DNA from: Bacteroidota bacterium
GTDB taxonomy: Bacteria; Bacteroidota; Bacteroidia; Chitinophagales; Chitinophagaceae
Assembly: GCA_013287475.1 (NCBI GenBank)
Contig: JABDDT010000023.1
Location: 1 to 37,148, forward strand
Length of the DNA stretch: 37,148 nucleotides
Direction: 5' to 3'
Position numbers and translations under genes: made by a program. Below the pieces are notes generated by a model, which saw nothing but the letters and a program-made list of their open reading frames with translations, did not search any database and was not told where the DNA came from. How positions within the stretch are numbered: position 1 is the first letter of the stretch; every line of letters starts with the position of its first letter. Positions 1 to 31,477 of this stretch are shown here, piece by piece.

Positions 1-983
1 TTAAGCTCCTCTTGATGCCTGAAAAAGTAAAGCATATACGGCCAAACCCCGGAAAAATACTTTTGAATTCTTCGGATGAAACCCAGTCGAAGTATATCAA
101 CGGGCATGAACTACAGTTTTCTCATCTGGACAAAATCTACTGGCCCAAAGAAAAATTAACGAAGAGGGATTTGCTGAATTATTATTCTGGGGTGGCACCT
201 TTTATTCTACCCTATCTGAAAAACCGGCCGCAATCACTCAACCGATTTCCAAATGGAATTGCAGGAGGAGGTTTTTATCAGAAAGATGTAAAGGGTAAGG
301 CGCCCGACTGGATTGAAAAATTTGCGTATCATAGTGAAGGTGATGCAAGAGACAAAGAATTCCTCGTATGCACAAATGAAGCGAGTCTCCTTTATATGGT
401 TTCCCTGGGATGCATCGAACTGAATCCGTGGTCCAGTACCATTAAAAGCCCGGATCGCCCTGATTGGTGTATCATTGATTTTGATCCGGATACAAATCCA
501 TTTAACCAGGTAATTGAAGCTGCACAGATCACCCACCAGATTCTTAAAACCCTGGGTATTGATTCTTATTGCAAAACTTCCGGTTCGACTGGATTACATA
601 TTTATATCCCACTAGAAGCAAAATATACTTTTGAAGAATCGAAAGAATTTGCAAAGGCGGTCGTGACGAAAGTAAATGCAGAAACCCCTGGCTTTACCAG
701 TATTGAAAGACCTCTTGAGAAACGTAAAGGGAAAATATATCTTGACTTTCTGCAAAACCGTACTCAGGCTACACTTGCTGCAGCTTATTCCCTGCGACCA
801 AAACCCGGAGCGACCGTTTCCACACCCCTGCATTGGGAGGAGGTCAAGAAAGGATTGAAGATGAAAGATTTTACCATACATAATATCCTGAATCGGATAA
901 TTAGTGAAGGGGATCTTTTCAAACCAGTACTCGGAAAAGGGATTAATTTGAAGGCAGCATTAAATGGAATTAAACAAATGTGA
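1..983 (+). CDS. ligD: DNA ligase D, C-terminal polymerase (primase-polymerase) domain, 5'-truncated by window edge
   Basis: This is the 3' end of a LigD gene, the multifunctional enzyme of Ku-dependent bacterial non-homologous end joining. The visible part is the archaeo-eukaryotic primase-like polymerase domain, which adds (ribo)nucleotides at double-strand breaks. Counting from the TTG at 12, the catalytic acidic pair is D156/D158 in IIDFDPD, the SGSTGLHIYIPL motif has H196, and the third aspartate is D245 in YLDFLQN. The frame is open to base 1 (codons AAG CTC CTC precede the TTG), so the TTG at 12 and ATG at 15 are probably internal and the ligase and/or phosphoesterase domains lie upstream. 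A stand-alone polymerase beginning at 15 is less likely but cannot be excluded. The stop codon lies inside a short tandem repeat. Confidence 0.9.
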   Translation, partial: KLLLMPEKVKHIRPNPGKILLNSSDETQSKYINGHELQFSHLDKIYWPKEKLTKRDLLNYYSGVAPFILPYLKNRPQSLNRFPNGIAGGGFYQKDVKGKAPDWIEKFAYHSEGDARDKEFLVCTNEASLLYMVSLGCIELNPWSSTIKSPDRPDWCIIDFDPDTNPFNQVIEAAQITHQILKTLGIDSYCKTSGSTGLHIYIPLEAKYTFEESKEFAKAVVTKVNAETPGFTSIERPLEKRKGKIYLDFLQNRTQATLAAAYSLRPKPGATVSTPLHWEEVKKGLKMKDFTIHNILNRIISEGDLFKPVLGKGINLKAALNGIKQM

Positions 984-1002
984 GAGTGTGAGAGTATGAT
1001 TA
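979..1002 (+). repeat. 8-base tandem array overlapping the ligD stop codon
   Basis: Two exact units TGTGAGAG (979-986, 987-994) are followed by a degenerate third unit. TGA occurs at 981, 989 and 997, exactly 8 bases apart, so all three plus-strand frames are closed; the first TGA is the ligD stop. No inverted partner arm is visible before the next gene. It belongs to the series of 7/8-base arrays in this window. Confidence 0.75.
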
Positions 1003-1039
1003 TTTCAGTTTTGTGCATAAAACAATTGCAAATTTTTGA

Positions 1040-1729
1040 ATGAAAAAGAATTTAGTTGTTTTAACCGGTGCAGGCATAAGTGCTGAGAGCGGTTTAAAAA
1101 CGTTCAGAGACAGCGACGGACTTTGGGAAGGTTATGATGTAAATGAAGTAGCAACTCCCGGAGGATGGAGGAAAAATCCTGAACTAGTTTTGAAATTTTA
1201 TAATATGCGCCGCAAGAATGTGTGCGTTGCCATTCCTAATGAAGCACATCTGGAACTTGCCAGACTGGAAGAATATTTTAATGTTCAGATAATCACGCAG
1301 AATATTGATGACCTGCATGAAAGAGCAGGATCTTCCCAGGTATTGCATCTTCACGGTGAAATTTTCAAGATGCGCAGTGAGCTGGATGATTCGCACGTCT
1401 TTTCTATCAGGGATGATATTCGCCTTGGCGACAAGGCTCCTGATGGCGGACAATTAAGACCACATATTGTTTGGTTCGAAGAACCTGTTCCACTCATAAT
1501 GAATGCAAGTCGTTTCGTACAGGGAGCCGATATTTTTGTAATCATCGGTACATCCCTTGCCGTGTATCCCGCTGCTGGCCTGATAGATTTTGCATACACA
1601 GAAATACCCAAATTTATAGTTGATAAAAATATTCCTAATACCCGTGGCATTCAAAACCTGTACATTATTGAAAAGCCCGCTACCGAAGGAATGAGACCAT
1701 TGAAAGATCAGCTCATGAAGTATATATAG
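1040..1729 (+). CDS. cobB: NAD-dependent protein deacylase, Sir2 family (SIRT5/CobB-like, lacking zinc cysteines)
   Basis: Predicted to remove acetyl or succinyl groups from protein lysines, using NAD+ and releasing nicotinamide. Visible motifs are GAGISAESG (residues 10-18), TQNIDDLHERAG (86-97), HLHG with catalytic H105, LRPHIVWFEE and GTSLAVYPAAG. Y54 and R57 in FYNMRRKN match the Tyr/Arg pair that gives SIRT5 and E. coli CobB their preference for succinyl and malonyl lysine. The stretch between HLHGE and RPHIVWF, where CobB has a Cys4 zinc ribbon, contains no cysteine; from memory this is common in Bacteroidota sirtuins and is not a sign of decay. It has 229 residues, a normal length, and starts 56 bases after ligD on the same strand, so co-transcription is possible. 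Confidence 0.93.
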   Translation: MKKNLVVLTGAGISAESGLKTFRDSDGLWEGYDVNEVATPGGWRKNPELVLKFYNMRRKNVCVAIPNEAHLELARLEEYFNVQIITQNIDDLHERAGSSQVLHLHGEIFKMRSELDDSHVFSIRDDIRLGDKAPDGGQLRPHIVWFEEPVPLIMNASRFVQGADIFVIIGTSLAVYPAAGLIDFAYTEIPKFIVDKNIPNTRGIQNLYIIEKPATEGMRPLKDQLMKYI

Positions 1730-1876
1730 CAGGGATCAGGTCTCTCCGGGGAACCGTTGACAAAGATTAACAGCACATTTTATCCGTAAATGGCTGTTTT
1801 CAGCTAAAAAGACCGGTTTCAGGTGGTTTGCTGACTAAATTTCTTTTCTTGGATCAGGCTTCTAAATCCATAGCCT

Positions 1877-1884
1877 TATATTTG
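1877..1884 (+). promoter_or_regulatory. Putative Bacteroidota -7 promoter element for the HU gene
   Basis: TATATTTG matches the TAnnTTTG consensus and lies 31 bases before the HU start codon. A TTG at 1849-1851 could be the -33 element, but its 25-base spacing is longer than usual. The start site is inferred to be near 1890. Confidence 0.6.
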
Positions 1885-1915
1885 CCCTTTATCGAAATCA
1901 ATAAAAACATTTTCC

Positions 1916-2185
1916 ATGAACAAAGCAGAACTGATTGCAAAATTAGCCGATGACGCAGGCCTTACAAAAACACAGGCTGGGGCTGCCCTCGATTCGTTTA
2001 CAGAAGCCATTGCAAAAACACTCAAAAAAGGAGACAAAGTAACACTTGTAGGTTTTGGGACTTTTTCAGTTTCAAAACGTGCAGCTCGTAATGGCCGGAA
2101 TCCACAAACAGGTGCGACCATTAAAATAAAAGCTAAAAAAGTGGCTAAATTCAAAGCAGGCAAAGAATTAGCCAGTCGCGTATAA
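1916..2185 (+). CDS. hup: HU family DNA-binding protein
   Basis: A nucleoid-associated protein that binds and bends double-stranded DNA as a dimer. At 89 residues it is the standard HU/IHF length. The N-terminal helical part (MNKAELIAKLADDAG) is followed by the conserved VTLVGFGTFSVSKR segment and the arm motif GRNPQTGATIKIKA, in which the intercalating proline follows RN. The C-terminus KKVAKFKAGKELASRV is typical. It looks monocistronic, with its own TAnnTTTG element upstream and a strong hairpin terminator 25 bases after the stop. The start is fixed by family length; no Shine-Dalgarno sequence is present, as is usual in this phylum. Confidence 0.97.
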   Translation: MNKAELIAKLADDAGLTKTQAGAALDSFTEAIAKTLKKGDKVTLVGFGTFSVSKRAARNGRNPQTGATIKIKAKKVAKFKAGKELASRV

Positions 2186-2209
2186 TAATATTTCAGTTTA
2201 TTCTTTTAG

Positions 2210-2233
2210 AGGGCCGGACGATCGGCCCTTTTT
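2210..2233 (+). terminator. Rho-independent terminator after the HU gene
   Basis: A 7 bp perfect stem, AGGGCCG pairing with CGGCCCT, encloses the 6-base loop GACGAT and runs into five T residues. It lies between convergent genes (HU plus, permease minus). It is the only classical GC-rich terminator seen in the window and contrasts with the repeat-built hairpins at the other convergent junctions. Confidence 0.88.
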
Positions 2234-2321
2234 CATATTCATTGATCGGAGAAACAACAACTTTCATAAATAGGGCAGACTGACAACACATTTTCAGACT
2301 CCCATACTCTTTTACTTGTTT

Positions 2322-3353: not shown

Positions 3354-3473
3354 TGTTTAACGTAAGTTACTAAGACTATCTGTTGAAGTCTGCAAATATT
3401 GAATTGGATGAAGATTCATTCCCGCAGAATCGATTTCAATTTTATAAGTACTTTTATTCATATCTAAATAATT

Positions 3474-5690
3474 ATGCGCACAGGATTTTTTGTTTTATTA
3501 TTTGTTTCCCTGCATACTGTATTGCCGGCACAACAAAATCAGATTTCAGGATTCAATGATAGCAGTTCCAGGGAAGAGTTGAGAAAAGAAAAAGCATTCG
3601 ATGATCTTATAAGCAGGGAAAATATAGGCCTGACTATCCGGGATCTTTCATCGGTGCCACATAATCTGGGTTCCGTTGGAAGTAAAGAAGTAGCAGTTAA
3701 AATTCAACAAAAACTACGGGATTATGGATTTGATACACATTTAGATGTGTACCAGGTGCTGTTTCCTGAACCCAGAATCAGGATTCTTGAAATGACTTCA
3801 CCTCAGACTTATCGGGCATTATTAAAGGAACCTGCATTAAAAGAAGATCATACAAGTGGCCAGCAGGGCCAGCTCCCGACTTATAATGCCTGGAGTGCCG
3901 ATGGTGATGTAACTGCTGAACTTGTTTACGTGAATTACGGTTTACATGCCGACTATGACGAACTGGCTAAAATGGGAATTGATGTAAAAGGGAAAATCGT
4001 TATTGCCAGGTATGGCCAAAGCTGGCGGGGTATTAAACCTAAAATTGCACGGGAGCACGGGGCGATTGGTTGTATAAATTATTCCGATCCGAAAGATGAT
4101 GGTTATTATCAGGGGGACATATACCCGAAAGGATCGTTCAAGAATGAATATGGTGTTCAGCGTGGCAGTGTCATGGATATGGTTATATATCCTGGTGACC
4201 CGCTCACACCCGGGATTGGTGCTACAAAGGATGCTAAAAGGTATGCGTCGCATCTGGATGCTCCAAACCTGCTTAAAATTCCTGTGTTACCTATCAGTTA
4301 TCATGACGCAAAGCCATTGCTGGAAACCCTTACTGGGCCAGTTGCTCCCGAAAACTGGCGGGGCGCCCTGCCTATTACCTATCATGTGGGGCCAGGGAAG
4401 TCAATCGTTCATTTGCAATTGCAATTTGACTGGAAACTGGTACCATGTTATGACGTCGTCGGTAGTATAAAAGGCACAGAATTTCCGGATGAATGGGTGA
4501 TCAGGGGAAATCATCACGATGCCTGGGTGAATGGCGCTATGGATCCGATAAGCGGACAGGCCTCTATGCTGGAAGAAGCCAAGGCATTAGGCACATTGGT
4601 AAAGTCTGGTTGGAAACCCAAGCGAACTATTGTTTATTGTGCCTGGGATGGTGAAGAACCTGCATTGGTGGGATCAACAGAATGGGTAGAGGACCACGCT
4701 GCATTACTACAGAAAAATGCAGTTATCTATATTAATTCAGATGAAAACGGGAGGGGATTTTTAAATGCCGGAGGCTCGCATGCTTTGCAGGGTATGGTAG
4801 ATGAAGTTGCCAAAAATATTAATGATCCGCAAACAGGTGTGAGTATTTATGAAAGAATAAAAGCGCATAAAATTGCCACTGCCGAAAGTCCTTCACAGGC
4901 GAAAGAATTTATGGAAAAACCAAGTTTGCATCTGGAAGCACTGGGAACGGGCTCAGACTTTTCTCCTTTCCTTCAGCATCTGGGAATTCCTTCCATCAAC
5001 CTGGAGTTTACAGGTGAAGACAACGGGGGTTCTTATCATTCGATATATGATTCTTATGATAATTACATCAGGTTCATAGATCCGGGATTTTACTATTGTG
5101 CATCTCTTTCAAAAGTTGCAGGACATATCTCGCTTCGTATGCTTGATGCAGATGTTCTGCCTTTTGATTTCAGAATTCTATTCAAAGAAATTAAATCCTA
5201 TACCTTGGAACTCCAAACATTGACTGCAAACCTCAGGGAAACTACTGTCATCAACAATGAAATCATTCGAAAAAAATATTTAATCATTGCTTCAGATCCG
5301 ACAAAGCCTTATTTTCCTGCTGCTGCCAAACAGGAAGTTCCTTATATTGATTTTTCGCCATTAGAAAATGCTGTTACAAGTCTGGGAAAATCTTCAGAGC
5401 ATGCAATTGAAGTAATGGGAAATAAGGGAATGGATGCTTTACAAAAAGACAGTCTGAACAGGATGCTCTTCAGAGCGGAGCAGGAACTCCTGCTTGATGC
5501 GGGACTTCCGCTGAGGCCCTGGTATAAACATGTTTTATACGCTCCCGGATATTATACCGGATATTCAGTAAAAACTTTACCAGGTATCAGGGAATCTATC
5601 GAACAAAGAAATTTCCCCGAAGCAGAAACCGGCATTAAGCAAGCTGCATATGCTATAAATAGACTGGCGGGATATTTGTCGGCGTTGTAA
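3474..5690 (+). CDS. Secreted M28 family metallopeptidase, glutamate carboxypeptidase II (PSMA)-like
   Basis: A co-catalytic dizinc peptidase, exported by an N-terminal signal peptide (residues 1-19, ending LPAQ). The order is that of the PSMA/NAALADase group: a protease-associated (PA) insert (about 140-300), an M28 catalytic domain (about 330-560) and a C-terminal transferrin-receptor-like dimerisation domain (about 610-735). All zinc and catalytic residues can be placed: H347 and D357 in HHDAWVNGAMD, catalytic E394 and ligand E395 in DGEE, D423 in NSDENG, and H522 in SYHSIYDS. At 738 residues it is full length. The likely activity is removal of C-terminal residues from short peptides in the periplasm or outside the cell; the substrate is not deducible. 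It is followed by a repeat-built hairpin. Confidence 0.94.
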   Translation: MRTGFFVLLFVSLHTVLPAQQNQISGFNDSSSREELRKEKAFDDLISRENIGLTIRDLSSVPHNLGSVGSKEVAVKIQQKLRDYGFDTHLDVYQVLFPEPRIRILEMTSPQTYRALLKEPALKEDHTSGQQGQLPTYNAWSADGDVTAELVYVNYGLHADYDELAKMGIDVKGKIVIARYGQSWRGIKPKIAREHGAIGCINYSDPKDDGYYQGDIYPKGSFKNEYGVQRGSVMDMVIYPGDPLTPGIGATKDAKRYASHLDAPNLLKIPVLPISYHDAKPLLETLTGPVAPENWRGALPITYHVGPGKSIVHLQLQFDWKLVPCYDVVGSIKGTEFPDEWVIRGNHHDAWVNGAMDPISGQASMLEEAKALGTLVKSGWKPKRTIVYCAWDGEEPALVGSTEWVEDHAALLQKNAVIYINSDENGRGFLNAGGSHALQGMVDEVAKNINDPQTGVSIYERIKAHKIATAESPSQAKEFMEKPSLHLEALGTGSDFSPFLQHLGIPSINLEFTGEDNGGSYHSIYDSYDNYIRFIDPGFYYCASLSKVAGHISLRMLDADVLPFDFRILFKEIKSYTLELQTLTANLRETTVINNEIIRKKYLIIASDPTKPYFPAAAKQEVPYIDFSPLENAVTSLGKSSEHAIEVMGNKGMDALQKDSLNRMLFRAEQELLLDAGLPLRPWYKHVLYAPGYYTGYSVKTLPGIRESIEQRNFPEAETGIKQAAYAINRLAGYLSAL

Positions 5691-5702
5691 TCTGATTATA
5701 GG

Positions 5703-5776
5703 ATATGGATTATGAGTTATGATTTTAACTGATGGTTGATGTAAACTCATAACCCATAATCCATAATTCATAACTT
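5703..5776. repeat. Heptad-repeat inverted pair (hairpin) between convergent genes
   Basis: The left arm (5703-5725) and right arm (5744-5766) pair over 23 bp with 3 mismatches around an 18-base loop. Both arms are built of 7-base units: ATTATGA/GTTATGA on the left and CATAAYY on the right, the latter continuing to 5776. On the plus strand TAA recurs at 5750, 5757, 5764 and 5771, exactly 7 bases apart. It lies between the stops of the M28 gene (plus) and the DUF2569 gene (minus). There is no T tract, so it is not a classical intrinsic terminator, though a bidirectional terminator role is plausible. Confidence 0.8.
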
Positions 5777-5784
5777 TCATTCTG

Positions 5785-6438
5785 TTAATTCGGAGGATAT
5801 ATAAAGGTTTGTTTAACCTGCTCTGAATTCCATACATAAGCGCCCCAGATCAATGAATACAAAGACATCCTGAAAAATTGATTAAGCATTTCATGACGAA
5901 TCACCGTCATATCTAACGGCAGGCTGATATTATCATATATAATCCATAAGGCAAATTGGGCGATTAGAAAAAAACTAACATAATATATGAACATTGACGG
6001 AAAAATATCTCTTCTTCCAAAAAACCAATACAATAAAACACCCGAACTGATAAGAGAAAATAAAGAAAGAAACAATTCAAATATTGATAGAAAATGCAGT
6101 TTCATTCCACCAGCCTGTTCCAACTGTACCCAGCCTGACTTCAGGAAATAATGCTCATTCATTAATGCAAATCCCTGCAATAAAATTCTTATTGCCAGGG
6201 TAAGGCCCAATAAGACAACCCAGCCACTCAAAGGAACGCCTGCATCACTTCGCTGATCATTTGTCATTGATTTTCTATTCAAAAACCGGAATAAGATGGT
6301 AAACAGAACCCCGAATAAAAAACCAAGCCAGATAGTTATCCAGTTGATGTTTGTTTCAGGATTGGAATGAATTTTTCCATTTGCAAGTGAGAGATAATAA
6401 GAAGAGAGGAGTAAAAGAATAATACAAATTCGACACAC
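5785..6438 (-). CDS. DUF2569-like integral membrane protein of unknown function
   Basis: A 217-residue membrane protein. After a hydrophobic N-terminal helix (about 4-20) and a second segment near 32-52, a four-helix region begins with VPLSGWVVLLGLTLAIRILL (about 68-87) and continues through LSIFELFLSLFSLISSGVLL, FIYYVSFFLIAQFALWII and a C-terminal stretch. The GW-start and helix pattern resemble the DUF2569 family, whose function is unknown. The apparent start is a GTG, because no ATG exists before residue 58. A TAAGTTTG promoter-like element lies 20 bases upstream on the same strand and supports this start. The gene is monocistronic and convergent with the M28 gene. Confidence 0.75.
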   Translation of the reverse strand: MCRICIILLLLSSYYLSLANGKIHSNPETNINWITIWLGFLFGVLFTILFRFLNRKSMTNDQRSDAGVPLSGWVVLLGLTLAIRILLQGFALMNEHYFLKSGWVQLEQAGGMKLHFLSIFELFLSLFSLISSGVLLYWFFGRRDIFPSMFIYYVSFFLIAQFALWIIYDNISLPLDMTVIRHEMLNQFFRMSLYSLIWGAYVWNSEQVKQTFIYPPN

Positions 6439-6457
6439 GTTCGTTGTTTGTTGTAAT

Positions 6458-6465
6458 CAAACTTA
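6458..6465 (-). promoter_or_regulatory. Putative -7 promoter element for the DUF2569 gene
   Basis: On the minus strand TAAGTTTG matches TAnnTTTG, about 20 bases ahead of the GTG start at 6438. No clear -33 TTG was found at the expected distance. Confidence 0.45.
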
Positions 6466-6614
6466 ATGAATAAATGCCATTAAAGCGACTCCTATATATA
6501 CAGCTCTTTAACATTCCCGACTTTGGTCAAATCGGAACGCAACCCGCCTCACAAAAAATCGTACTCACTACTAAGCGCTTTTCTACATATAAGTATTAAG
6601 TAAATCAAAAAATA

Positions 6615-7487: not shown

Positions 7488-7531
7488 GTTGGATTGAATT
7501 CGCAGATTCTGTAGCTAGATATTAGAAAACT

Positions 7532-10305: not shown

Positions 10306-10854
10306 ATGTTTTTCCGATTCTTTTACATTTTTTTAATGACCATCAGTTTTGCTGTGAAAGGCATTTGTCAGAACTATCTGACAAAAACAGGGTTTATTGG
10401 TTTTTATTCGAAGACTCCTCTCGAAGATATCAAAGCAGAAAACAATCAGGTCTATGCAGTGCTGGATCCGGTAAGCCATCATATCGCCTTCGCCGTTTTA
10501 TTAAAGGGATTTATTTTCACAAAGGAATTGATGCAGGAACACTTCAACGAAAACTATGTAGAGAGCGATAAATTCCCGAAAGCAACATTTTCAGGTATAT
10601 GCTCCGGGGAAATGGATTTTAGTAAAGAAGGAACTTACCAGGTCGTGATTAAAGGTGATTTAACGCTTCATGGAGTGACCAAAGCCATGGAGACAACGGC
10701 CCAGCTGGAAGTTAAAAAAGACCATATAAATGGGACTTCTGTATTCAAATTAAAACCGGAGGATTTTAACATCAGCATCCCAAGCATTGTAAGAGATAAA
10801 ATTACCAGTGAAATTACCGTGAAAGTTAAAATTGAATGGGTGCAAACAAAATAA
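10306..10854 (+). CDS. YceI-like lipocalin-fold protein
   Basis: A 182-residue secreted protein (signal peptide about 1-21, ending KGICQ). The YceI signature is visible: KTPLEDIKAENN near the N-terminus, FTKELMQEHFNENYVESDKF, the KATFSG strand, GDLTLHGVTK and the C-terminal ITSEITVKVKIEW strand. Characterised YceI proteins bind polyprenoid chains or isoprenoid quinones in a lipocalin-like barrel; the ligand here is inferred. The variant is divergent: it begins with TKTGFIGFYS rather than the usual SxIxF strand. It is tightly packed between the cytochrome lipoprotein and the DUF5777 barrel (5-base gap), so it is probably one operon. Confidence 0.85.
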   Translation: MFFRFFYIFLMTISFAVKGICQNYLTKTGFIGFYSKTPLEDIKAENNQVYAVLDPVSHHIAFAVLLKGFIFTKELMQEHFNENYVESDKFPKATFSGICSGEMDFSKEGTYQVVIKGDLTLHGVTKAMETTAQLEVKKDHINGTSVFKLKPEDFNISIPSIVRDKITSEITVKVKIEWVQTK

Positions 10855-10859
10855 TCAAA

Positions 10860-11780
10860 ATGAAAATCAGAAAAACTTTTTTCAGCCTGATCCTTATTCT
10901 TTCAGGCTTTCACTTATTGGCACAGGATAGCCTTCTCAAGTCACTTAACGATTCCATATCTGCCGTGCCCAATAATGGATATGTTACAGGTACATTTAAG
11001 GCTCTGTATATTGTAAATATGAAAACAATCGAAGCCCCCGCAGCGGGAGCGTTGAATGTGGAAATCCAGCATCGCTTTGGCACAATTAACACAGGGGCCT
11101 ATAATTTATGGGGGCTCGATTTTGCAACACTTCGTCTTGGACTGGATTATGGAATTACTGACAGGCTTTCAGTTGGAATCGGAAGAAGTTCGTATCTGGA
11201 AACATTTGATGGATATCTGAAATATAAATTATTGCGACAATCAGAAAGTTCAATGCCTGTATCAGTTGGTCTGCTTGGAACTTCGAGTTATTTTACAAAC
11301 CATGCACCTTTGGGAGATAATGCCAATATATCAGGTTCTTCCAGATTCAATTATACTTTACAGATGCTGATTGCGAGGAAATTCAACAGTCATTTCTCTT
11401 TAGAACTCACTCCTACCTTTATCCATTATAATATGGTTACCTCTCCTGATCAGAATAATGTATTTGCCCTATGTGGAGGCGCCAGAATGAAAATCAGCAA
11501 GCGTATGGCCATTACTGCAGAATATGATTATTTATTCCCGAATCAGCTTGTTTCGCCATTATTTCCACCCTCTCCGCCCAGAACGAATTCTCTTTCATTT
11601 GGATGGGATATTGAAACCGGGGGACATGTGTTTCAACTTGTTTTCACCAACTCCCAAAGTATGATTGAGTCGCAGTATATTGGTCAGACAGCCGGCACGT
11701 GGGGCAAAGGCTATATTTATTTTGGATTTAATATTTCACGCAATTTTAATTTGAAAGCACATAATAAGCCGAAAGCTTAA
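10860..11780 (+). CDS. DUF5777 family outer-membrane beta-barrel protein
   Basis: A 306-residue predicted barrel with signal peptide MKIRKTFFSLILILSGFHLLAQ. Characteristic segments are VEIQHRFGTINTG, NLWGLDFATLRLGLDYGITD, LSVGIGRSSYLETFDGYLKYKLL and the late WGKGYIYFGFNISRNFNL. These resemble the DUF5777 beta-barrel family, which from memory often accompanies YceI and cytochrome genes in Bacteroidota; its function is unknown. The frame is open to 10836, but the ATG at 10860 begins the signal peptide and follows the YceI stop directly. The stop codon TAA is the first unit of a heptad array (TAACGCG). It is the last gene of the plus-strand cluster. Confidence 0.82.
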   Translation: MKIRKTFFSLILILSGFHLLAQDSLLKSLNDSISAVPNNGYVTGTFKALYIVNMKTIEAPAAGALNVEIQHRFGTINTGAYNLWGLDFATLRLGLDYGITDRLSVGIGRSSYLETFDGYLKYKLLRQSESSMPVSVGLLGTSSYFTNHAPLGDNANISGSSRFNYTLQMLIARKFNSHFSLELTPTFIHYNMVTSPDQNNVFALCGGARMKISKRMAITAEYDYLFPNQLVSPLFPPSPPRTNSLSFGWDIETGGHVFQLVFTNSQSMIESQYIGQTAGTWGKGYIYFGFNISRNFNLKAHNKPKA

Positions 11781-11911
11781 CGCGTAACGCGTAACGCATT
11801 ACATTGAAAAGAAAAACATAAAAATTTTAAAGAAAACGTGCTCATACTTACATTACCCAATGCTAGTCTGGCATTACGCGTTACGCCTTAAGCGTTATGC
11901 GTTATGCGTTA
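11778..11911. repeat. Mirrored heptad arrays containing the stop codons of two convergent genes
   Basis: The plus-strand array begins at the DUF5777 stop: TAACGCG (11778), TAACGCG (11785), TAACGCA (11792), with TAA in all three frames. The minus-strand array begins at the reductase stop (11911) and has six TAA at an exact 7-base spacing (plus-strand TTA at 11909, 11902, 11895, 11888, 11881, 11874). Both genes end in GCTTAACGC. The two arms pair over about 27 bp with 4 mismatches, enclosing an AT-rich centre of roughly 75 bases. No T tract follows. No other feature is seen between the arms. Confidence 0.88.
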
Positions 11912-12883
11912 AGCATAGACCTCCGGATTCACAACAAAGGGAAGTCGCTCGCCTCTTAATCCGGCTACTGTATTTTTTGCAGCAATCAGGGACATAGCTG
12001 CACGGGTTTCTTCTGTCGCAGATCCAATATGCGGCAAAACAGAAACATTGGGCATCGAAAGCAGAGGATGATCCGGTCGCATTGGCTCCGGATTTGTTAC
12101 GTCAAGACCGGCTCCCCAGATCAATCCTTTCTGTAACGCTTCTGTGAGGTCATCTTCATTGTGAATAGCGCCGCGTGCAGCATTGATAAAAATAGCATTG
12201 CGCTTCATACATTCAAAAACTTCTTTATTGAATTTTCCTTTGGTTTCTGGGGTGAGCCCGGTGTTGACGGATAAAACATCACTATTTTCCAATAGTTCAC
12301 TGAATGAAACCCTGGTGGCCCCTAATTCCCTTTCTGCGTCTATATGATGACCCCGGTTATAATAAATGATTTTCATATCAAAAGCATAAGCACAGCGCTT
12401 TGCCAATTCAAAACCAATCTTACCCAATCCAAATATGCCAAGCGTTCTACCATGGATTTCAATTCCCAGATTAGCCGTTGGTTCAAAAAAACCCCAACCG
12501 CCTTTTTGTATCGTCTTATGCATATAAAAAGCTTTTCTTGAAGTGGCAAGGATCAATAAAAAAGCAGTATCTGCTGTTGCATTACTCAGAACACCAGGTG
12601 TATTCCCAATAGGTATTTTCAATTCCGTTGCTGCATCAATATCCACATTGTCATAACCGACACTGTGAAGACTGATAACTTTTAAATGAGCTGCTGCTTT
12701 CAGGAAAGTTTTATCAATTCGATTATTTCCGGCACTTAGAAGTGCATCAGCATTTTGGCAGTGTTCAATTAATTCCTGCGGACTCAGATCCCTTTTGGTT
12801 GTCCATTCTGAAATGCTGATACCAGCATCCATTAAATACTTTAAACCCAGATCAGGAATTTTCCTGGTAATAAATACTTTCAT
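11909..12883 (-). CDS. D-2-hydroxyacid dehydrogenase, glyoxylate/hydroxypyruvate reductase (GRHPR-like)
   Basis: Reduces glyoxylate to glycolate or hydroxypyruvate to D-glycerate in the cytoplasm. Its 324 residues contain the Rossmann motif GLGKIG (152-157), the catalytic triad R237 (AARGA), E266 (NPEP) and H285 (LPHIGSAT), and the segment AGLDVTNPEPM followed by HPLLSMPNV, which is very close to human GRHPR. After the second Rossmann strand there is N176-R177 instead of an acidic residue, which points to NADPH rather than NADH. It lies 86 bases downstream of the GH97 gene on the same strand; no motif was seen in that gap. The stop codon is the first unit of a heptad array. Confidence 0.92.
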   Translation of the reverse strand: MKVFITRKIPDLGLKYLMDAGISISEWTTKRDLSPQELIEHCQNADALLSAGNNRIDKTFLKAAAHLKVISLHSVGYDNVDIDAATELKIPIGNTPGVLSNATADTAFLLILATSRKAFYMHKTIQKGGWGFFEPTANLGIEIHGRTLGIFGLGKIGFELAKRCAYAFDMKIIYYNRGHHIDAERELGATRVSFSELLENSDVLSVNTGLTPETKGKFNKEVFECMKRNAIFINAARGAIHNEDDLTEALQKGLIWGAGLDVTNPEPMRPDHPLLSMPNVSVLPHIGSATEETRAAMSLIAAKNTVAGLRGERLPFVVNPEVYA

Positions 12884-17060: not shown

Positions 17061-17112
17061 AAAGTCTAAAGAAAAAATCGGTCAGCTGCCAACTGCCAAC
17101 CGCCAACTAACC
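17061..17112 (+). repeat. Two short heptad arrays in the VOC/ung divergent region
   Basis: A partial copy of period 7 (AAAGTCT then AAAG, 17061-17071) is followed by three heptads, CTGCCAA (17086), CTGCCAA (17093), CCGCCAA (17100), and the remnant CTAACC. No inverted arm is present. Unlike the arrays at gene ends, the unit contains no stop codon on either strand. It lies 14 bases before the ung start. Confidence 0.7.
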
Positions 17113-21257: not shown

Positions 21258-21271
21258 ACATTACAATGGTA

Positions 21272-22363: not shown

Positions 22364-22371
22364 TAGGTTTG
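22364..22371 (+). promoter_or_regulatory. Putative -7 promoter element for the MCE gene
   Basis: TAGGTTTG matches TAnnTTTG, 47 bases before the MCE start. A TTG at 22334-22336 lies 27 bases further upstream, a long spacing for a -33 element. Confidence 0.45.
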
Positions 22372-22418
22372 TAATTATATAAAATGCCGACGGAAAAGAA
22401 ATTAAAATTAAACTAAGA

Positions 22419-26263: not shown

Positions 26264-26318
26264 ATACGGTATTCTGGGTTGAATATAAGTAAATAAATAA
26301 CGATCTCTCAAATACTTC

Positions 26319-26326
26319 TATCTTTG
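26319..26326 (+). promoter_or_regulatory. Putative -7 promoter element for ychF
   Basis: TATCTTTG, followed by C, matches the Bacteroidota TAnnTTTG consensus, 46 bases ahead of the ychF start. No TTG is found at the usual -33 distance. The spacer to the divergent SpmA-SpmB gene is about 110 bases. Confidence 0.6.
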
Positions 26327-26372
26327 CGGGCGCAAAAACAAAGAGATTTTAGAATTATTAAAATAAACTTTC

Positions 26373-27473
26373 ATGGCTTTAAAGGCAGGCATCGTCGGAT
26401 TACCGAATGTAGGAAAATCCACGCTGTTTAATGCGGTTAGTACCAGTGCAAAGGCCCAGGCCAGCAATTACAGATTCTGCACTATTGAACCTAATATCGG
26501 TCTTGTGGATGTTCCGGATCTACGCCTGAACAAGCTGGCAGAACTCGTTAACCCGAACCGGATCGTACCCACCCAGATTGAAATTGTAGATATAGCAGGC
26601 CTTGTAAAAGGGGCAAGTAAAGGAGAAGGACTGGGCAATAAATTTCTTGCCAATATACGTGAAGTGGACGCCATTGTACATGTAATCAGGTGCTTTGAAG
26701 ATGATAATATCCTTCGGGAAGAAGGCGAGATCAATCCGGTCAGTGACAAGGAAATCATTGATACGGAACTGCAACTAAAGGACCTGGATGCCATTGAAAG
26801 AAAATTCCAGAAAGCTGAAAAATTATTAAGAACTGCCGATCCAAAACAAAAAGCTGAATTCGAAATTCTTAAGAAATGCAAAACACAACTTGAAAAAGGG
26901 AAAAACATTCGGGAGCTGAATCTTGATAAAAATGAGAGGATGGCAATTGCAGATCTTTTCTTACTTACTGATAAACCGGTTTTATATGTGGCCAATGTGG
27001 ATGAAGCATCCATGCATGGAGGAAATCGTTATTCTGCAGCGCTGAGAAAAGCAGCCGAAGCGGAACATGCGCAGATCATTATTATGAATAATTCCATTGA
27101 ACAACAGATTGCAGAACTTGAAAATGCTGAAGATAAAGAGATGTTTATGGAAGAATATCACATGAAAGAGCCCGCATTGAATAAACTCATCCGTTCTACT
27201 TATGTCCTGCTCGAATTGCTGACTTATTTCACAGCAGGTGTTCAGGAAGTAAGGGCATGGACTATCCACACTGGTTGGAAAGCGCCACAGGCAGCCTCCG
27301 TAATTCATACAGATTTTGAAAAAGGATTTATCAAAGCGGAAGTAATCGCTTATGATGATTTTATAAAATATAAATCAGAAGCTGCCTGTCGTGAGGCAGG
27401 AAAGCTCCGTATCGAAGGAAAGGATTATGTGGTAAAAGACGGAGATGTCATGCATTTTCGATTTAATGTCTGA
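26373..27473 (+). CDS. ychF: Redox-regulated ATPase YchF (Obg-family P-loop NTPase)
   Basis: A ribosome-associated ATPase of the OLA1/YchF group implicated in translation and stress responses. Its 366 residues are the normal length. G1 is GLPNVGKST (9-17), followed by the NYRFCTIEPNIG switch region, the G3 segment DIAGLVKGASKGEGLG, a coiled-coil insertion (about 130-180), and NVDE (208-211) in place of the GTPase NKxD, the feature that makes these enzymes ATP-specific. The C-terminal TGS domain ends GKDYVVKDGDVMHFRFNV. It looks monocistronic with its own TAnnTTTG element and is followed by a repeat-built hairpin. Confidence 0.97.
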   Translation: MALKAGIVGLPNVGKSTLFNAVSTSAKAQASNYRFCTIEPNIGLVDVPDLRLNKLAELVNPNRIVPTQIEIVDIAGLVKGASKGEGLGNKFLANIREVDAIVHVIRCFEDDNILREEGEINPVSDKEIIDTELQLKDLDAIERKFQKAEKLLRTADPKQKAEFEILKKCKTQLEKGKNIRELNLDKNERMAIADLFLLTDKPVLYVANVDEASMHGGNRYSAALRKAAEAEHAQIIIMNNSIEQQIAELENAEDKEMFMEEYHMKEPALNKLIRSTYVLLELLTYFTAGVQEVRAWTIHTGWKAPQAASVIHTDFEKGFIKAEVIAYDDFIKYKSEAACREAGKLRIEGKDYVVKDGDVMHFRFNV

Positions 27474-27478
27474 AGAAA

Positions 27479-27543
27479 AGTATAGGAGTATAGGAGTATA
27501 AGATTTTACTAATTTCACTCCTATACTCCTATACTCTTATACT
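27479..27543. repeat. Octad-repeat inverted pair (hairpin) between ychF and the TonB receptor gene
   Basis: Three 8-base units GTATAGGA, GTATAGGA, GTATAAGA (27480-27503) face the inverted units TCCTATAC, TCCTATAC, TCTTATAC (27519-27542). The arms pair over 25 bp with 2 mismatches around a 15-base loop. Each unit contains TAG or TAA: plus-strand stops at 27483, 27491 and 27499 cover all three frames, and the minus strand has stops at 27544, 27539, 27531 and 27523. The last unit overlaps the stop codon of the receptor gene by one base. There is no long T tract after the stem in either direction. Confidence 0.88.
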
Positions 27544-30307
27544 AGAAAACATTATACCCCAAACTAATATAATACAACCCTCCTACCTGGGGATTTCCGA
27601 TTGCGTCTGTATAATAATGATTTAAAATATTGCTTGCCCCAATCTTTATCATGCTGTTATTCATTTTTGGAAGCTTCATGCTGATCTGCGCATCGAGCAC
27701 TCCGAAAGCCGGCGTATTTCCTGATACAAAAGAGGATTGGTAATAATAGCTTTCCTGCCAGCGATAAGTAAGATTAAAACCAAATACTTTCCTTATGGTA
27801 TAATTGCCTATCGAAATATTGTATTTGATTTTCGGCGTATTGAACTGTGTCAGCACATTGACATCTGCATTGGATAAATCATTGTATGCAATATTGCCTC
27901 CGACGAAAAATCCTTTTGGCAGGGTATACTGAAGTCCAAGACCCGCGCCGACAGTATTCACTTTATTGGTGCTGTTCGTATAAATGGCAAAAGTATTTGT
28001 GGGATGTACGCCGAGTGTTAGAGGATCCTTTACCAGAACAGTCAGCCCGATAAAATTATTATACTGGGCATAAAATCCATAAATATCAATAAACAGTTTC
28101 TCATCTATGATTCCCTTATATCCAATTTCCCAGGAGGATACTGTTTCGGGTTTGAATTCTTTAAACTGATACTGGGTAGGAGCCGGTCCGCCTGCCTGAT
28201 ATTCAAAAAGTGAAGCGGTATCATACGTATTACCGTCATTCAAACCATAATATGTTATAAACTGCGGGAGGCCACCAATTAAACGTGCAGAACCTGTTTG
28301 CAAGTCAATGTATTGGTTTTGATTTGATGGAAACCGGTAAGCAGTCTGAAATGAGGCACGGATGTAATTATCCTTGGCAACCTGGTAAACTGCTGTTATC
28401 CTTGGTGTGAACTTACCGGTAAAGTTGGTACTCTTATCATAGCGGCCTGCTACTGTCATTTTTAAAAGATCATTAAAAAATCCCTTTTGCAACTGCGCAA
28501 ATGCACCGCTTTCATTGATACTAATAGTACCTGCCGTATCAGCGAATATGGTACCATGGGAATTTAAAACATATTCTTTGGTTGAAGCTCCTACTGTAAT
28601 ATCGACCCACTTAACCATATCAGCGAAATTATACATGGCTTCTCCTACGTAAAGATCAGTCTGGTCATTAAACTTCCCTCCATAAGGAATGGAAGTATTT
28701 TTTATTGTATTCAGCGCTGTATTGAAAGCAGTCGTTCCGGGCTGATACCTGTTTTGATCCGCCGTGGTTCTTGCAAATGCACTCGCGGTTACATAAGCCT
28801 GTGAAGGAGTTTGGCCGGCCATAAGAGCTGCACCAAATGATTGAGCATATGCACCAATATATGTAGGCGCCCAAACAGTTGCTGTCGGTGCATAGGCTTC
28901 ATTCATATAAGTGCCGGTCACAACCATATCATAAGAGTTGCCCGCATTTTCCTGGGTCGTATAAGCTCTTACATAAAAATTCTTTCCTGCTACTTCAGCC
29001 TTGTATTGACCGATAGTTACATTCTGGAGATTATATCGGTCGGTTCCTGTATAAACAGTATTCGTGGTGCCGTAGTTTCCAGTGAGGCTTGCTGTTGTGT
29101 TATCAGAGATTTTATAATACAATCCGCCGGAAGCTTTAAAGTTATAGGCTTTATAATTGGTTAGTGTATTTTCAGCATACCCGGTCCGGGTTACACCTGC
29201 ATTTTGCGGAGAAATGCTTGCAATTTGCTTCAATTGATTGGCAATTGCAGTATCCTGGGCAGTTTGCATGTCCAAATATTGTTGAGCGGCTGAATTCAAA
29301 CCACCGGTTATAGTAAAAAATTCATTTTCATCACCATATGTATTTACTCCGTTATAGTTAGGAAGACTTCTGTCACCGGCGATAGGTGATCCCTGAATCG
29401 GAGAATAATTACTATAATTGGACGCGGTCCAGTCTTTTCCCTGTATATAATCTGCCGAAATATGAAATGCAAATTTGTTGAATGATTGCGCATAGCGGGC
29501 CATGATATCATAATAAGGTGCAGCACCCATGCTGGGATCGCTGATATGGTTCACTCCCTGTTTGAATTCTGCACTCAGTCCCTGGTATTTATATGGATCT
29601 TTACTGGTCATCAGAATTGTGCCTGTCATTCCACCAGATCCATATAGCGCTGAGGAAGCTCCTGGTAACAATTCAACATTATCAACATCGAGTTCATTGA
29701 GACCTGCAATATTTCCCACAGAAAAATTAAGGCCGGGCGCCTGGTTATCCATTCCATCCACCAGTTGATTCATGCGCAGATTACCGCTGCCATTGAATCC
29801 GCGGGTACCCATCGTTTTAAAGAGCATGGACGAAGTAACCACATCCACACCTTTTAAATTGCCTATAGCATCATAGAAAGAAGGTCCGGGAACCTCACGA
29901 ATGGCCGCACTTCCCATACGTTCTATTGAAACCGGCGATTCCAGACTCCTTATTTGTGAACGGGTAGCAGAAACTACCACTTCCGTACCTATTACGGAGG
30001 CTGGTTTCAGTTCGATATCAATCGTGGATGAAGCAGATCCAACTTCGAATTCTTTTGTTTCATATCCAATGGAAGAAATGACCAATGTAAATGGGAAGGC
30101 ATGGTTTACAGATAATTTGAAATTTCCATGGTTATCCGTAAAAGTACCGGTTGTCCCCCCTTTGATTAATACCGAAGCGGCCGGAACGGCTTCCTTACTG
30201 TCTCCGTTAGTTATTTTACCGGAAACGATTACGGCCTGGGCTAAGGATCTGTTCGAGATTAAAAAAATAAGCAGGAATGCAAATAATGCACGTGTAGAGG
30301 TTTTCAT
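27542..30307 (-). CDS. TonB-dependent receptor with carboxypeptidase-regulatory-like N-domain
   Basis: An outer-membrane active transporter of 921 residues with signal peptide MKTSTRALFAFLLIFLISNRSLAQ. An N-terminal CarboxypepD_reg-like domain (about 26-110; VSGKITNGDSKEAVPAASVL) is followed by a plug (about 112-240; VVVSATRS, SPVSIERMG, VELLPGASSALYGSGGMTG) and a barrel to the end, where the C-terminus GGLYYISLGYNVF has the typical final phenylalanine. No SusD partner is adjacent, so the substrate is open; siderophore or cobalamin-type uptake is possible. The gene is divergent from purC and convergent with ychF. Confidence 0.95.
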   Translation of the reverse strand: MKTSTRALFAFLLIFLISNRSLAQAVIVSGKITNGDSKEAVPAASVLIKGGTTGTFTDNHGNFKLSVNHAFPFTLVISSIGYETKEFEVGSASSTIDIELKPASVIGTEVVVSATRSQIRSLESPVSIERMGSAAIREVPGPSFYDAIGNLKGVDVVTSSMLFKTMGTRGFNGSGNLRMNQLVDGMDNQAPGLNFSVGNIAGLNELDVDNVELLPGASSALYGSGGMTGTILMTSKDPYKYQGLSAEFKQGVNHISDPSMGAAPYYDIMARYAQSFNKFAFHISADYIQGKDWTASNYSNYSPIQGSPIAGDRSLPNYNGVNTYGDENEFFTITGGLNSAAQQYLDMQTAQDTAIANQLKQIASISPQNAGVTRTGYAENTLTNYKAYNFKASGGLYYKISDNTTASLTGNYGTTNTVYTGTDRYNLQNVTIGQYKAEVAGKNFYVRAYTTQENAGNSYDMVVTGTYMNEAYAPTATVWAPTYIGAYAQSFGAALMAGQTPSQAYVTASAFARTTADQNRYQPGTTAFNTALNTIKNTSIPYGGKFNDQTDLYVGEAMYNFADMVKWVDITVGASTKEYVLNSHGTIFADTAGTISINESGAFAQLQKGFFNDLLKMTVAGRYDKSTNFTGKFTPRITAVYQVAKDNYIRASFQTAYRFPSNQNQYIDLQTGSARLIGGLPQFITYYGLNDGNTYDTASLFEYQAGGPAPTQYQFKEFKPETVSSWEIGYKGIIDEKLFIDIYGFYAQYNNFIGLTVLVKDPLTLGVHPTNTFAIYTNSTNKVNTVGAGLGLQYTLPKGFFVGGNIAYNDLSNADVNVLTQFNTPKIKYNISIGNYTIRKVFGFNLTYRWQESYYYQSSFVSGNTPAFGVLDAQISMKLPKMNNSMIKIGASNILNHYYTDAIGNPQVGGLYYISLGYNVF

Positions 30308-30346
30308 GACAAGCTGTTTAGGTCACAGAATATTTAAAACAAAAAA

Positions 30347-30465
30347 TAAAAATTCAAAACTTAAAAAGTAAAAAAGAAAAACTATATAAATATAACGAAT
30401 TAGGGTTTACTCTATTTTTTTTTAATTTTCACTTTTGAATTTTTACGTTTTACTTTTGAATCTTA
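30347..30465. repeat. AT-rich period-7 arrays with an inverted core in the TonB receptor/purC divergent region
   Basis: A 13 bp perfect inverted repeat, TAAAAATTCAAAA (30347-30359) with its complement at 30433-30445, lies within two AT-rich period-7 tracts. The right tract runs in heptads from 30424 (AATTTTC, ACTTTTG, AATTTTT, ACGTTTT, ACTTTTG, AATCTTA). The left tract has T-runs spaced about 7 bases on the minus strand. The tracts sit in a promoter region rather than at gene ends. The rest of the 170-base gap shows nothing else recognisable. Confidence 0.6.
30451..30458 (+). promoter_or_regulatory. Putative -7 promoter element for purC, formed by repeat units
   Basis: TACTTTTG matches TAnnTTTG and is 19 bases before the purC start, giving a short leader. 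It is created by the junction of the heptads ACGTTTT and ACTTTTG. No -33 TTG is at the standard distance. Confidence 0.45.
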
Positions 30466-30477
30466 TATCGAAAAAAT

Positions 30478-31416
30478 ATGTCCATTTATCATTTCATGGA
30501 TCAGACAGGCTTTTACAAGGGGAAGGTCCGCGATGTGTATACAATAGAAGACAGGTTACTTGTGATGATTGCATCCGATCGTATTTCTGCATTTGACGTC
30601 ATTCTTCCCCGACTGATCCCTTATAAAGGACAGGTTTTGAATCAGATTGCTGCTTACATGCTGAATGCAACCAGAGATATTTGTCCGAACTGGCTACTCA
30701 CCTCTCCCGCTCCCAATGTAAGTATTGGTAAACGTTGCGATCCCTATCGCGTCGAAATGGTGATCCGGGGAAATCTAACGGGGCATGCCTGGAGAACCTA
30801 TCAATCCGGCCAGAGAAAATTATGTGGTGTTACTATGCCGGAAGGTCTGAAAGAAAATGATTATTTCCCTCATCCGATTATTACGCCATCCACAAAAGCA
30901 GAAGCGGGTCATGATGAAGATATTTCGAAAGAAGAAATTATTGGCAGAGGATTGGTAAAAGAAAAAGATTATATCCGGATGGAAAAATATACATTGATGC
31001 TTTTTGAATACGGAAAGCAACTGGCTGCAGAAAGAGGACTTATCCTGGTGGATACCAAATATGAGTTTGGTAAAATCGGAGATACGATCTGTCTGATGGA
31101 TGAAATCCATACACCTGATTCTTCCCGGTATTTTTATGCGGAAGGATTTGAAGAAAGACAAAGGAAGGGAGAAAAACAAAAGCAACTGAGTAAGGAATTT
31201 GTACGCGAATGGCTGATTGCAAATGGTTTTATGGGAAAATACGGACAACAGGTTCCGGTAATGACTGATGAATGGATTCAAACCATTTCTAACCGTTATA
31301 TTGAATTATATGAAAAAGTAATCGGCGAAGAATTTATACCCTTGCAATTATCGGATGATGAAACATTCTTTCTTATTAACGAGAGTCTGACAAAACTTAA
31401 AATGTTACAATATTAA
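30478..31416 (+). CDS. purC: Phosphoribosylaminoimidazole-succinocarboxamide synthase (SAICAR synthetase)
   Basis: Purine biosynthesis step that joins aspartate to CAIR using ATP. The 312 residues belong to the longer form of the family (E. coli PurC is about 237). Visible are [20 protein letters not shown] at the N-terminus, [41 protein letters not shown], the signature [15 protein letters not shown] and [13 protein letters not shown] with [12 protein letters not shown]. The stop TAA is the first unit of a degenerate octad array. No other pur gene is adjacent, so purine genes are dispersed, as often in Bacteroidota. Confidence 0.97.
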
Positions 31417-31477
31417 TGTGGCGAATGCGGAAATTTCCCCATCCACTCATTGCTACATTTCTGTATTCATAACATTA
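31414..31477. repeat. Degenerate octad-repeat inverted pair between purC and trhO
   Basis: The plus-strand left arm starts at the purC stop (TAATGTGG, then CGAATGCG). The right arm on the minus strand contains AATGTAGC and AATGAGTG, with the trhO stop at 31477. AATGTGGC pairs with GCTACATT (31452-31459) including one G-T pair, then AATG pairs with CATT after a one-base bulge. Minus-strand stops at 31477, 31469 and 31455 cover all three frames. It appears to be a decayed copy of the convergent repeat hairpins seen elsewhere. The centre GGAAATTTCC is a perfect 10-base palindrome. Confidence 0.6.

Follow-up and report, generated by a model that had tools for sequence, protein, structure and literature searches.

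Several gene ends in this stretch of Bacteroidota DNA carry short tandem arrays with a unit of 7 or 8 bases, which raises the question of what they are and whether they are there for the stop codons that they often contain. A preliminary description listed five such regions (979-1002, 5703-5776, 11778-11911, 27479-27543 and 31414-31477), called their units unrelated, and read them either as duplications around stop codons that are kept as fail-safe stops or as neutral slippage. We analyzed the whole stretch of 37,148 nt (the window), 40 further stretches of the same genome (G000), 40 more from relatives and 80 named Bacteroidota loci. This bacterium and several of its relatives have many short arrays with a 7- or 8-base step, often as facing mirror pairs behind genes.

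Arrays in the window

Four of the five regions hold arrays, three of them as inverted pairs and one as a single octamer array; the fifth is a weak palindrome. At the junction of the convergent ORFs 3474-5690 and 5785-6438, a left arm of degenerate heptamers TATGGAT/TATGAGT (5704-5727, plus strand; inverted repeat I4, 92%) faces a right arm of AACTCAT/AACCCAT/AATCCAT heptamers (5740-5775, minus strand; Tandem Repeats Finder, lag scan and inverted repeat). Within 5703-5776 the right arm alone is called as an array, and the left arm is visible as its inverted match. In the second pair, the left arm of TAACGCG heptamers (11772-11802, plus strand) holds the TAA of ORF 10836-11780, and the right arm, with the inward unit TAACGCN (11871-11921, minus strand), holds the stop of ORF 11909-12883, which is on the minus strand and 2-hydroxyacid dehydrogenase-like by Pfam. 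Both arms were found by Tandem Repeats Finder, by the lag scan and as an inverted repeat. The third pair is made of octamers, with a left arm of AGTATAGG/AGTATAAG (27479-27503, plus strand) behind a YchF-like ORF (26373-27473) and a right arm (27517-27543, minus strand) that touches the stop of a TonB-receptor-like ORF (27542-30307, minus strand); these arms were found by Tandem Repeats Finder and as an inverted repeat, and the ORFs were named from Pfam. No array was called at the orthologous junction in one relative, G016. The best inverted-segment scores for 5703-5776, 11778-11911 and 27479-27543 are 19, 18.5 and 20, and the maxima in 40 dinucleotide shuffles of each are 9.5, 12 and 12.

The single octamer array at 979-999 (TGTGAGAG in 2.6 copies, a rotation of AGTGTGAG, with no strand assigned) was found by Tandem Repeats Finder and in the sequence itself, is below the length needed by the lag scan, and overlaps the stop of a LigD primase-polymerase-like ORF (12-983, Pfam). 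It lacks an inverted partner, scoring 6 where shuffles average 7.1 and reach 10 at most. The weak palindrome at 31414-31477, also without a strand, lies between convergent SAICAR-synthetase (purC) and rhodanese-like ORFs (Pfam) and is called as an array by neither Tandem Repeats Finder nor the lag scan; it scores 9.5, with a shuffled mean of 5.9 and a maximum of 8. The stop-codon contacts noted earlier at 981, 11778, 11911, 27542 and 31414 all match the ORFs and the sequence.

Arrays strongly tend to lie at gene ends but do not always do so: two regions between divergent genes, 30336-30457 and 17077-17111, were missing from the earlier list. The former is a degenerate A-rich heptamer pair, with a left arm at 30336-30384 (plus strand; inverted repeat I1, 49 nt, 73%; Tandem Repeats Finder and lag scan) and a right arm at 30408-30456 (minus strand; Tandem Repeats Finder, lag scan and inverted repeat), and its inverted score of 17.5 compares with a shuffled mean of 10.2 and a maximum of 14.5. 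The latter is a single heptamer array of AACTGCC, with no strand assigned, found by Tandem Repeats Finder and the lag scan. Over the window, the lag scan calls six period-7 and three period-8 arrays, two of them overlapping, and 200 shuffles of the window's intergenic DNA gave 0.035 period-7 and 0.015 period-8 arrays per replicate.

Periods, unit families and pairing

Periods 7 and 8 are almost the only ones in intergenic DNA, both in G000 (window plus 40 stretches) and in the pooled relatives and named loci, from whose array calls one stretch reading N was excluded. Among the named loci, those of Longitalea arenae and Chitinophaga rupis carry arrays. In 20 G000 stretches chosen by contig number only (400 kb, 38,495 bp intergenic), periods 7 and 8 take up 45 and 11 bases per kb, which together make between 5 and 6% of intergenic DNA, and periods 4-6 and 9-13 are at zero, as are dinucleotide shuffles of the whole G000 sample. 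No such arrays were found in 50 kb of E. coli, of which just 4,803 bp are intergenic. The G000 total is 193 period-7 and 58 period-8 arrays, and 11 of the 251 lie wholly within an ORF of at least 100 aa; ORFs in all statistics are mechanical (at least 80 or at least 100 aa), which leaves start codons and part of the intergenic regions uncertain. Low-complexity units (one base at all or all but one positions) were excluded from the relatives' arrays, from the orientation and inward-unit counts of relatives, and from the mismatch, ortholog and core counts. BLAST gave at least 60 matches, and 40 of 99 candidates were scored.

The units were described as unrelated, and locally they are, but genome-wide they fall into repeated families. 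For example, AACGCNTAACGCNTAACGC has 78+64 overlapping matches across the genome and GAGTATAAGAGTATAAGAG has 22+32. Unit families differ from genome to genome. Array density is uneven. With respect to an origin-to-terminus account of this, the single DnaA-domain match lies on an array-bearing contig (C22), and no ribosomal protein L2 was detected in the incomplete G000 genome. A mixture of two organisms would also be possible; codon-usage components shift with array density and form no two clear groups.

About half of the arrays are paired: 119/251 have an inverted partner that matches almost exactly and lies no more than 250 bp away, compared with 0/251 when flanks are shuffled (arrays containing N were excluded from this count and from later analyses). 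Within pairs each unit has one orientation, and a reversed exact unit was found neither among the 119 paired arms of G000 nor in five relatives. Read inward, units have more G than C in 60 of 87 genome-unit combinations from 18 genomes, less in 10 and equal numbers in 17; related genomes are not independent here, and the summed G-C sign per genome is positive in 14, negative in 1 and zero in 3.

Gene ends and stop codons

The association with gene 3' ends holds up: 114 of 378 3' ends have an array within -20 to +10 bp, compared with 31 of 434 5' ends, and in the stretches chosen by contig number only the counts are 29/186 and 9/224. Arrays are present in 40/64 convergent, 63/162 co-directional and 20/102 divergent regions. 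Few sites are common to species. In 56 comparisons of orthologous gene ends, which are non-independent in that several relatives are set against the same G000 gene, an array was found on one side only in 22, on both sides in 1 (with different units) and on neither in 33. The small number of shared sites argues against a gene-specific function.

The faster closure of all three frames that had been proposed for array-bearing ends is also real: it occurs within 30 nt at 54% of 114 array ends, whereas shuffling the same stretches gives 16% and the 210 array-free ends give 9%. This is consistent with fail-safe stops, in which duplications around stop codons would be retained since all frames then close behind the gene, as are the start of arrays at or close to the stop codon, the excess of units with a stop inward only (34) over outward only (7), and the phase of the gene's own stop, which at 121 array-bearing ends coincides with the same unit triplet in 50 cases and with another stop in 8. 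However, at the same ends the unit stop is in another phase in 46 cases and the units are stop-less in 17. The stop content of units is not above what base composition gives, the outcome that the preliminary description had itself named as counting against its reading: 57 of 87 inward units hold a stop when 53.1 (sd 3.6) are expected by letter permutation (18 genomes), and in a smaller set 47 of 68 do when 41.5 (sd 3.1) are expected, so there may be a weak extra preference for stops. The other frame-closing periods (4, 5, 10 and 11) are at or near zero, reaching no more than 0.33 bases per kb in G000 and 1.73 in relatives, and arrays also occur between divergent genes. In the main family, nAAnGCn, it is the T of TAA that varies, and the G and C, which are not part of the stop, stay fixed. 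Given that the units are dispersed families, most arrays are probably not local copies of their own gene's stop. The stop codons in the arrays look like a side effect, and we regard fail-safe stops as a very unlikely explanation.

Fixed cores, alternative origins and a putative reader

Deviations from an array's own consensus at the seven positions of nAAnGCn are 0.163/0.012/0.013/0.193/0.013/0.013/0.374 in G000 (117 arrays, 601 units), i.e., the core deviates in about 1% of units and the other positions in 16-37%, although the family filter requires the core in the consensus and so favors low core values. A similar trend is seen in a second species, G005, with 0.14/0.054/0/0.065/0.011/0.032/0.323 (26 arrays, 93 units). 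Beyond nAAnGCn and the AGTnTnnn octamers, position bias in G000 is weak (p 0.004-0.03), and recombination among older variants could account for some of it. Since main-family units keep a fixed core, something seems to maintain or copy the arrays.

Neutral slippage alone, the other reading offered at the outset, fits poorly with these fixed positions. We consider it unlikely that the arrays arise from polymerase slippage in preferred steps of 7-8 bp, with purifying selection acting on nothing but insertions into genes and promoters, even though exact two-copy duplications of period 7 are in excess in G000 outside arrays (12, with 3.4 expected) and, with arrays unmasked, in the 80 named loci (44 and 5.8), where period 8 is too (11 and 3.4). 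A polymerase-contact explanation for heptamers has also been published (Mrazek 2007, as cited in PMC4679880 and PMC4692102). The corresponding period-8 count for G000 outside arrays is 1, with 1.8 expected; 20 relatives' stretches with few or no arrays have 2 of period 7 (1.0 expected) and 4 of period 8 (0.2 expected), and period 6 exceeds expectation as well (22 and 13.0 in G000, 36 and 22.4 in the named loci). Against slippage are the thirty-fold contrast among unit positions of the main family, the occurrence of a single unit family at scores of sites, the one orientation per unit, and a positional pairing between arms that exceeds the mean of unit-permuted arms in 42/58 pairs. Unit identity is 0.81 for adjacent units and 0.72 for units at least three apart (103 arrays); this greater likeness of neighbors is as tandem duplication predicts, and to that extent slippage fits.

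The arrays could instead be bidirectional terminators or hairpins that protect RNA 3' ends, selected as RNA structure, which we think is possible but doubtful. As with intrinsic terminators, stable hairpins are predicted behind genes, array ends folding at -27.8 kcal/mol per 100 nt compared with -17.5 when shuffled (112 ends) and array-free ends at -18.4 compared with -15.4 (196 ends), and convergent regions are the richest in arrays. Unlike intrinsic terminators, just 6/51 array hairpins have a T tract after the stem, compared with 11/27 other hairpins, and by a second measure the counts are 23/112 array ends and 76/196 array-free ends. The 5' arm has G>C to G<C in a ratio of 36:13 in array hairpins and 9:13 in other gene-end hairpins, and 132/251 arrays are without a near-exact partner. 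Selection on the RNA strand was considered and rejected: arm mismatches at co-directional sites are of the G-U type in 47 cases and of the A-C type in 44 (excluding the stretch reading N), so there is no sign of a conserved RNA hairpin. The hairpin explanation would overlap with the one we prefer, below, if the putative reader acts on RNA ends.

An origin from mobile elements is highly improbable. REPINs are dispersed inverted pairs with one orientation, a likeness to the arrays, and the outer ends of 11775-11914, GCTTAAC/GTTAAGC, agree with the attC core pattern. We set aside RAYT/REPIN because Y1_Tnp has no match in the array-bearing G000, G005, G006 and G016, genomes that are just 58-86% complete, although it does in G015, G025 and G026. 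Integron attC sites were rejected because an integron integrase is above cut-off in 0/33 genomes. The fixed orientation also suggested reverse-transcribed repeats of a telomerase-like origin, but RVT_1 has no match in five array-bearing genomes (G000, G005, G006, G015 and G016, of which G015 is 99% complete); the array-bearing G025 and G026 do have one. The spacers between arms also speak against a mobile element, as their length varies over 3-168 nt (5th-95th percentile, 99 pairs).

Of published cases, the GGGAATC heptamers of Xanthomonas come closest (Rehm et al. 2015, PMC4692102); they are described as intergenic arrays of (GGGANTN)n, with GGGGA(C/T)T in Nostoc. There, positions 1-4 and 6 are conserved and the others vary, 70 opposite-strand convergent pairs are counted in Xcc and 75 in Xac, the average distance is 28 nt from the 5' neighboring ORF and 160 nt from the downstream ORF, few lie between divergent ORFs, and the function is given as unknown. 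The G000 arrays share with these the dispersed intergenic tandem units (heptamers of at least two units, with octamers in addition), the fixed and variable positions, the opposite-strand convergent pairs, and the location near gene 3' ends and rarely between divergent genes; we read "convergent orientation" in that paper as having the G-rich strand inward. In contrast, quadruplex-capable G-tracts would be rare here, judging from GGG on either strand in 15/251 units (e.g., AGTATGGG and ATATGGG), and that paper follows one quadruplex-capable unit per organism, unlike the many families, two periods and species-dependent units seen here. TAACTGA direct repeats form intergenic heptamer arrays in Beggiatoaceae, cyanobacteria and five Bacteroidetes (MacGregor 2015, PMC4679880), in an account that already notes their three-frame stops and mentions other Bacteroidetes heptamer arrays. 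That single unit is mostly directly upstream of start codons, the main genome having 169 direct sets but a single indirect one, whereas G000 arrays favor 3' ends, and TAACTGA is missing from the G000 family list. DNA uptake signals of Neisseria and Pasteurellaceae (Kingsford 2007, PMC1852404) are also dispersed short motifs in inverted pairs at gene ends, but they are single 9-11-nt motifs in predicted intrinsic terminators, not tandem arrays. Among the open-licence papers covered, we found no description of inverted 7/8-bp pairs across Bacteroidota.

The explanation that we favor, tentatively and at somewhat less than an even chance, is that the arrays are a dispersed class of tandem 7-/8-bp unit arrays behind genes, often in inward-facing pairs, whose core is held by a putative reader. 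Arrays would lengthen by tandem duplication in 7-8-bp steps and reach new gene tails through copying from other arrays, and a reader working unit by unit would hold them to the core. This reader would most likely be a factor that binds nucleic acid in a sequence-specific manner and acts at transcript ends. On this view the composition of the units, together with the tolerance of gene tails, would account for both the stop codons and the rarity of arrays within genes. We infer that the arrays extend the Xanthomonas-type heptamers, as tandem recognition units with a putative reader and inward-facing pairs. More speculatively, and with a rather low probability, gene tails in many bacteria may be lined with tandem units for an undescribed factor that takes one 7-/8-nt unit per subunit or module, single- or double-stranded; unit and reader would co-diverge into species-specific sets, and inward pairs would flag, from either side, where transcription units end.

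If nothing reads the arrays, the position bias demands a copying mechanism that favors some bases of a unit, which to our knowledge would be new. If a factor does read them, this class of bacterial repeats, known but so far without an explanation, would gain a function and a testable partner.

Tandem arrays in the window and in its genome

Four of the five gene-end arrays of the preliminary description were recovered by Tandem Repeats Finder: a period-8 array at 979-999, and three sets at junctions of convergent ORFs that are inverted pairs in the inverted-repeat scan, of period 7 (5703-5776, 11778-11911) or period 8 (27479-27543). The fifth, at 31414-31477, failed as an array in both Tandem Repeats Finder and the array scan. 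Further array sets lie between divergent genes at 17077-17111 and 30336-30457. The window holds 9 arrays, versus 0.05 per replicate in all from its shuffled intergenic DNA under the identical scan, and Pfam names for the flanking ORFs are YchF, TonB receptor, SAICAR synthetase, rhodanese, 2-hydroxyacid dehydrogenase and LigD primase-polymerase. The heptamers at the outer ends of 11775-11914, GCTTAAC and GTTAAGC, are perfect reverse complements of each other; we take them to match the attC core pattern, which is probably a coincidence of the unit.

In G000, the genome of the window, region 11700-12000 as a BLAST query has at least 60 matches, many of them minus-then-plus pairs spaced roughly 75-150 bp. 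We sampled 40 additional stretches of this genome, the first 20 mostly picked on contigs with matches and the other 20 by contig number. Across 424 intergenic regions (74,742 bp), periods 7 and 8 account for 85 and 26 bases per kb, multiples follow, remaining periods up to 13 reach at most 0.6, and shuffles give zero; coding DNA of the sample has 0.58 and 0.19. The stretches picked by contig number have 45 and 11 bases per kb, with zero for the rest of periods 4-13. Resolving overlaps left 251 arrays, of which 193 have period 7 and 58 have period 8. In degenerate forms that are our own summary of the observed units, the heptamer families include TAACGCN, TAAAGCY, TAATTGT, TTGACSG and TTATGRR, and the octamer families AGTATRRG, AGTGTGAG and AGTGTGGT.

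Density differs by stretch (L009-L048) from 0 to 12 arrays per 10 kb and tracks GC (Spearman 0.57) and a codon-usage component (Spearman 0.60); the cause may be that the assembly is composite, or it may be a domain effect. L033, a 20-kb stretch made up of a single open reading frame per the ORF caller, has zero arrays.

Gene ends and stop codons

The proposed association with gene 3' ends was borne out: an array boundary falls at -20 to +10 bp of 114/378 3' ends versus 31/434 5' ends in the G000 sample, and of 29/186 versus 9/224 in the stretches picked by contig number. Among regions of at least 60 bp, 40/64 convergent, 63/162 co-directional and 20/102 divergent ones bear arrays (8/24, 22/90 and 5/50 in the contig-number stretches). 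With a window of -25 to +15, relative G005 shows the bias too (33/65 3' ends versus 8/65 5' ends); numbers are small in G006 (5/25 versus 3/33), G015 (5/76 versus 2/76), G026 (8/70 versus 4/80) and G025, where there is no difference (2/28 versus 2/28). AAGT is a frequent start of octamer arrays and may mark a defined border: at 18/32 octamer ends of the 121-end set below, for example at window 27476-27479, it sits no more than 14 nt past the stop codon.

Fail-safe stops were one of two readings offered in the preliminary description, and one part of this stands, as the three reading frames are closed early at array-bearing ends. The stop content of the units is explained mostly by composition: an inward stop is present in 57/87 units versus 53.1 expected, and an outward stop in 30/87 versus 29.3. 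A weak extra preference is possible because a smaller set of 68 units had 47 with a stop versus 41.5 expected (sd 3.1). At 121 array-bearing ends, the gene's stop is in phase with an identical unit triplet in 50 cases and with another stop in 8, while 46 are out of phase and 17 are on stop-less units.

Paired arms and constraint on the unit

For nearly half of the G000 arrays (119/251), a near-exact inverted partner lies no more than 250 bp away; with the flanks shuffled this number falls to 0. No reversed copy of any exact unit was found among these 119 paired arms, nor in paired arms of G005, G006, G015, G025 and G026. Spacers between arms vary widely in length around a median of 52 nt (99 pairs, all sampled genomes). 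Across 87 genome-unit combinations from 18 genomes, the inward strand is mostly G-rich (G>C in 60, G<C in 10, equal in 17), a skew absent from gene-end hairpins without arrays (9 to 13). Composite sites at L022:4333-4462, L026:16618-16703 and L020:6969-7083 have a left octamer (AGTGTGAG or AGTATAAG) and a right heptamer (inward TTGACGG), and the units of their two arms are not complementary.

In the main family, nAAnGCn, the four core positions differ from the array's own consensus in ~1% of 601 G000 units and the three non-core positions in 16, 19 and 37%, with low core values favoured by the family filter, which demands the core in the consensus. This filter cannot easily be the source of the thirty-fold contrast. 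In G005 (93 units) the trend is the same, although position 4 deviates in 6.5% of units and one of the core positions in 5.4%; the bias is milder in octamers and weak in other families. Adjacent units are more similar than units further apart, as local duplication predicts. Pairing between the arms is above the average for unit-permuted arms in 42/58 pairs (average 27.8 vs 25.8), yet G-U is not preferred among the arm mismatches at co-directional sites (47 vs 44).

Distribution, turnover and interpretation

The genus set comprised 33 genomes, the window's own included. The top named purC matches carry the label Chitinophagaceae or individual genus names, the latter genera presumably also being Chitinophagaceae. 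The AGTATAAG pattern is present in 2/33 genomes (G000 and G005) and TAACGC in 4/58 (G000, G005, G015 and G016); further genomes have arrays of periods 7 and 8 built from different units. Pooled values for periods 7 and 8 are 22 and 4.4 bases per kb in 40 stretches of relatives, against 8.1 and 2.0 in 80 named Bacteroidota loci; other, non-multiple periods reach at most 1.7 and 0.8, period-7 shuffles give zero in both sets, and period-8 shuffles 0 and 0.45. The 140 arrays in relatives are spread over 42/119 loci, 52 of them partnered and 25 within ORFs. Some other genomes had zero arrays in the single stretch sampled, and E. coli had zero in 50 kb, of which 4,803 bp is intergenic. Saprospiraceae arrays at L172:10457-10709 have inward units GGGTTTT and GGGTGTT, which to us resemble telomere repeats by sequence and orientation.

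Species have few sites in common. The YchF/TonB-receptor junction measures 68 bp in the window, with an array pair, and 33 bp in G016, with zero called arrays; the stop positions match. Five species have the same C-terminal 11 YchF residues, and only the window's species has an array there. Over 56 orthologous gene-end comparisons, arrays were in G000 only in 15, in the relative only in 7, in both in 1 (with differing units) and in neither in 33.

Among the open-licence papers searched, the nearest published kin are the Xanthomonas and Nostoc heptamers (PMC4692102) and the TAACTGA repeats, whose all-frame stops had been pointed out (PMC4679880). The present set differs from these in its many unit families per genome, its octamer class, its measured core/spacer contrast and its few sites shared between species.

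Among the rivals to the reading that we favour, RNA hairpins rank first. The odds that we give the readings exceed a sum of one because this rival overlaps the recognition-unit reading. Neutral slippage, the alternative already named in the preliminary description, comes second, fail-safe stops third, with early frame closure on one side and composition-like stop content on the other, and mobile elements last. Our favoured reading is that the arrays are tandem recognition units: a putative reader would maintain the units, the arrays would enlarge through 7-8-bp duplication, and they may spread to new sites.
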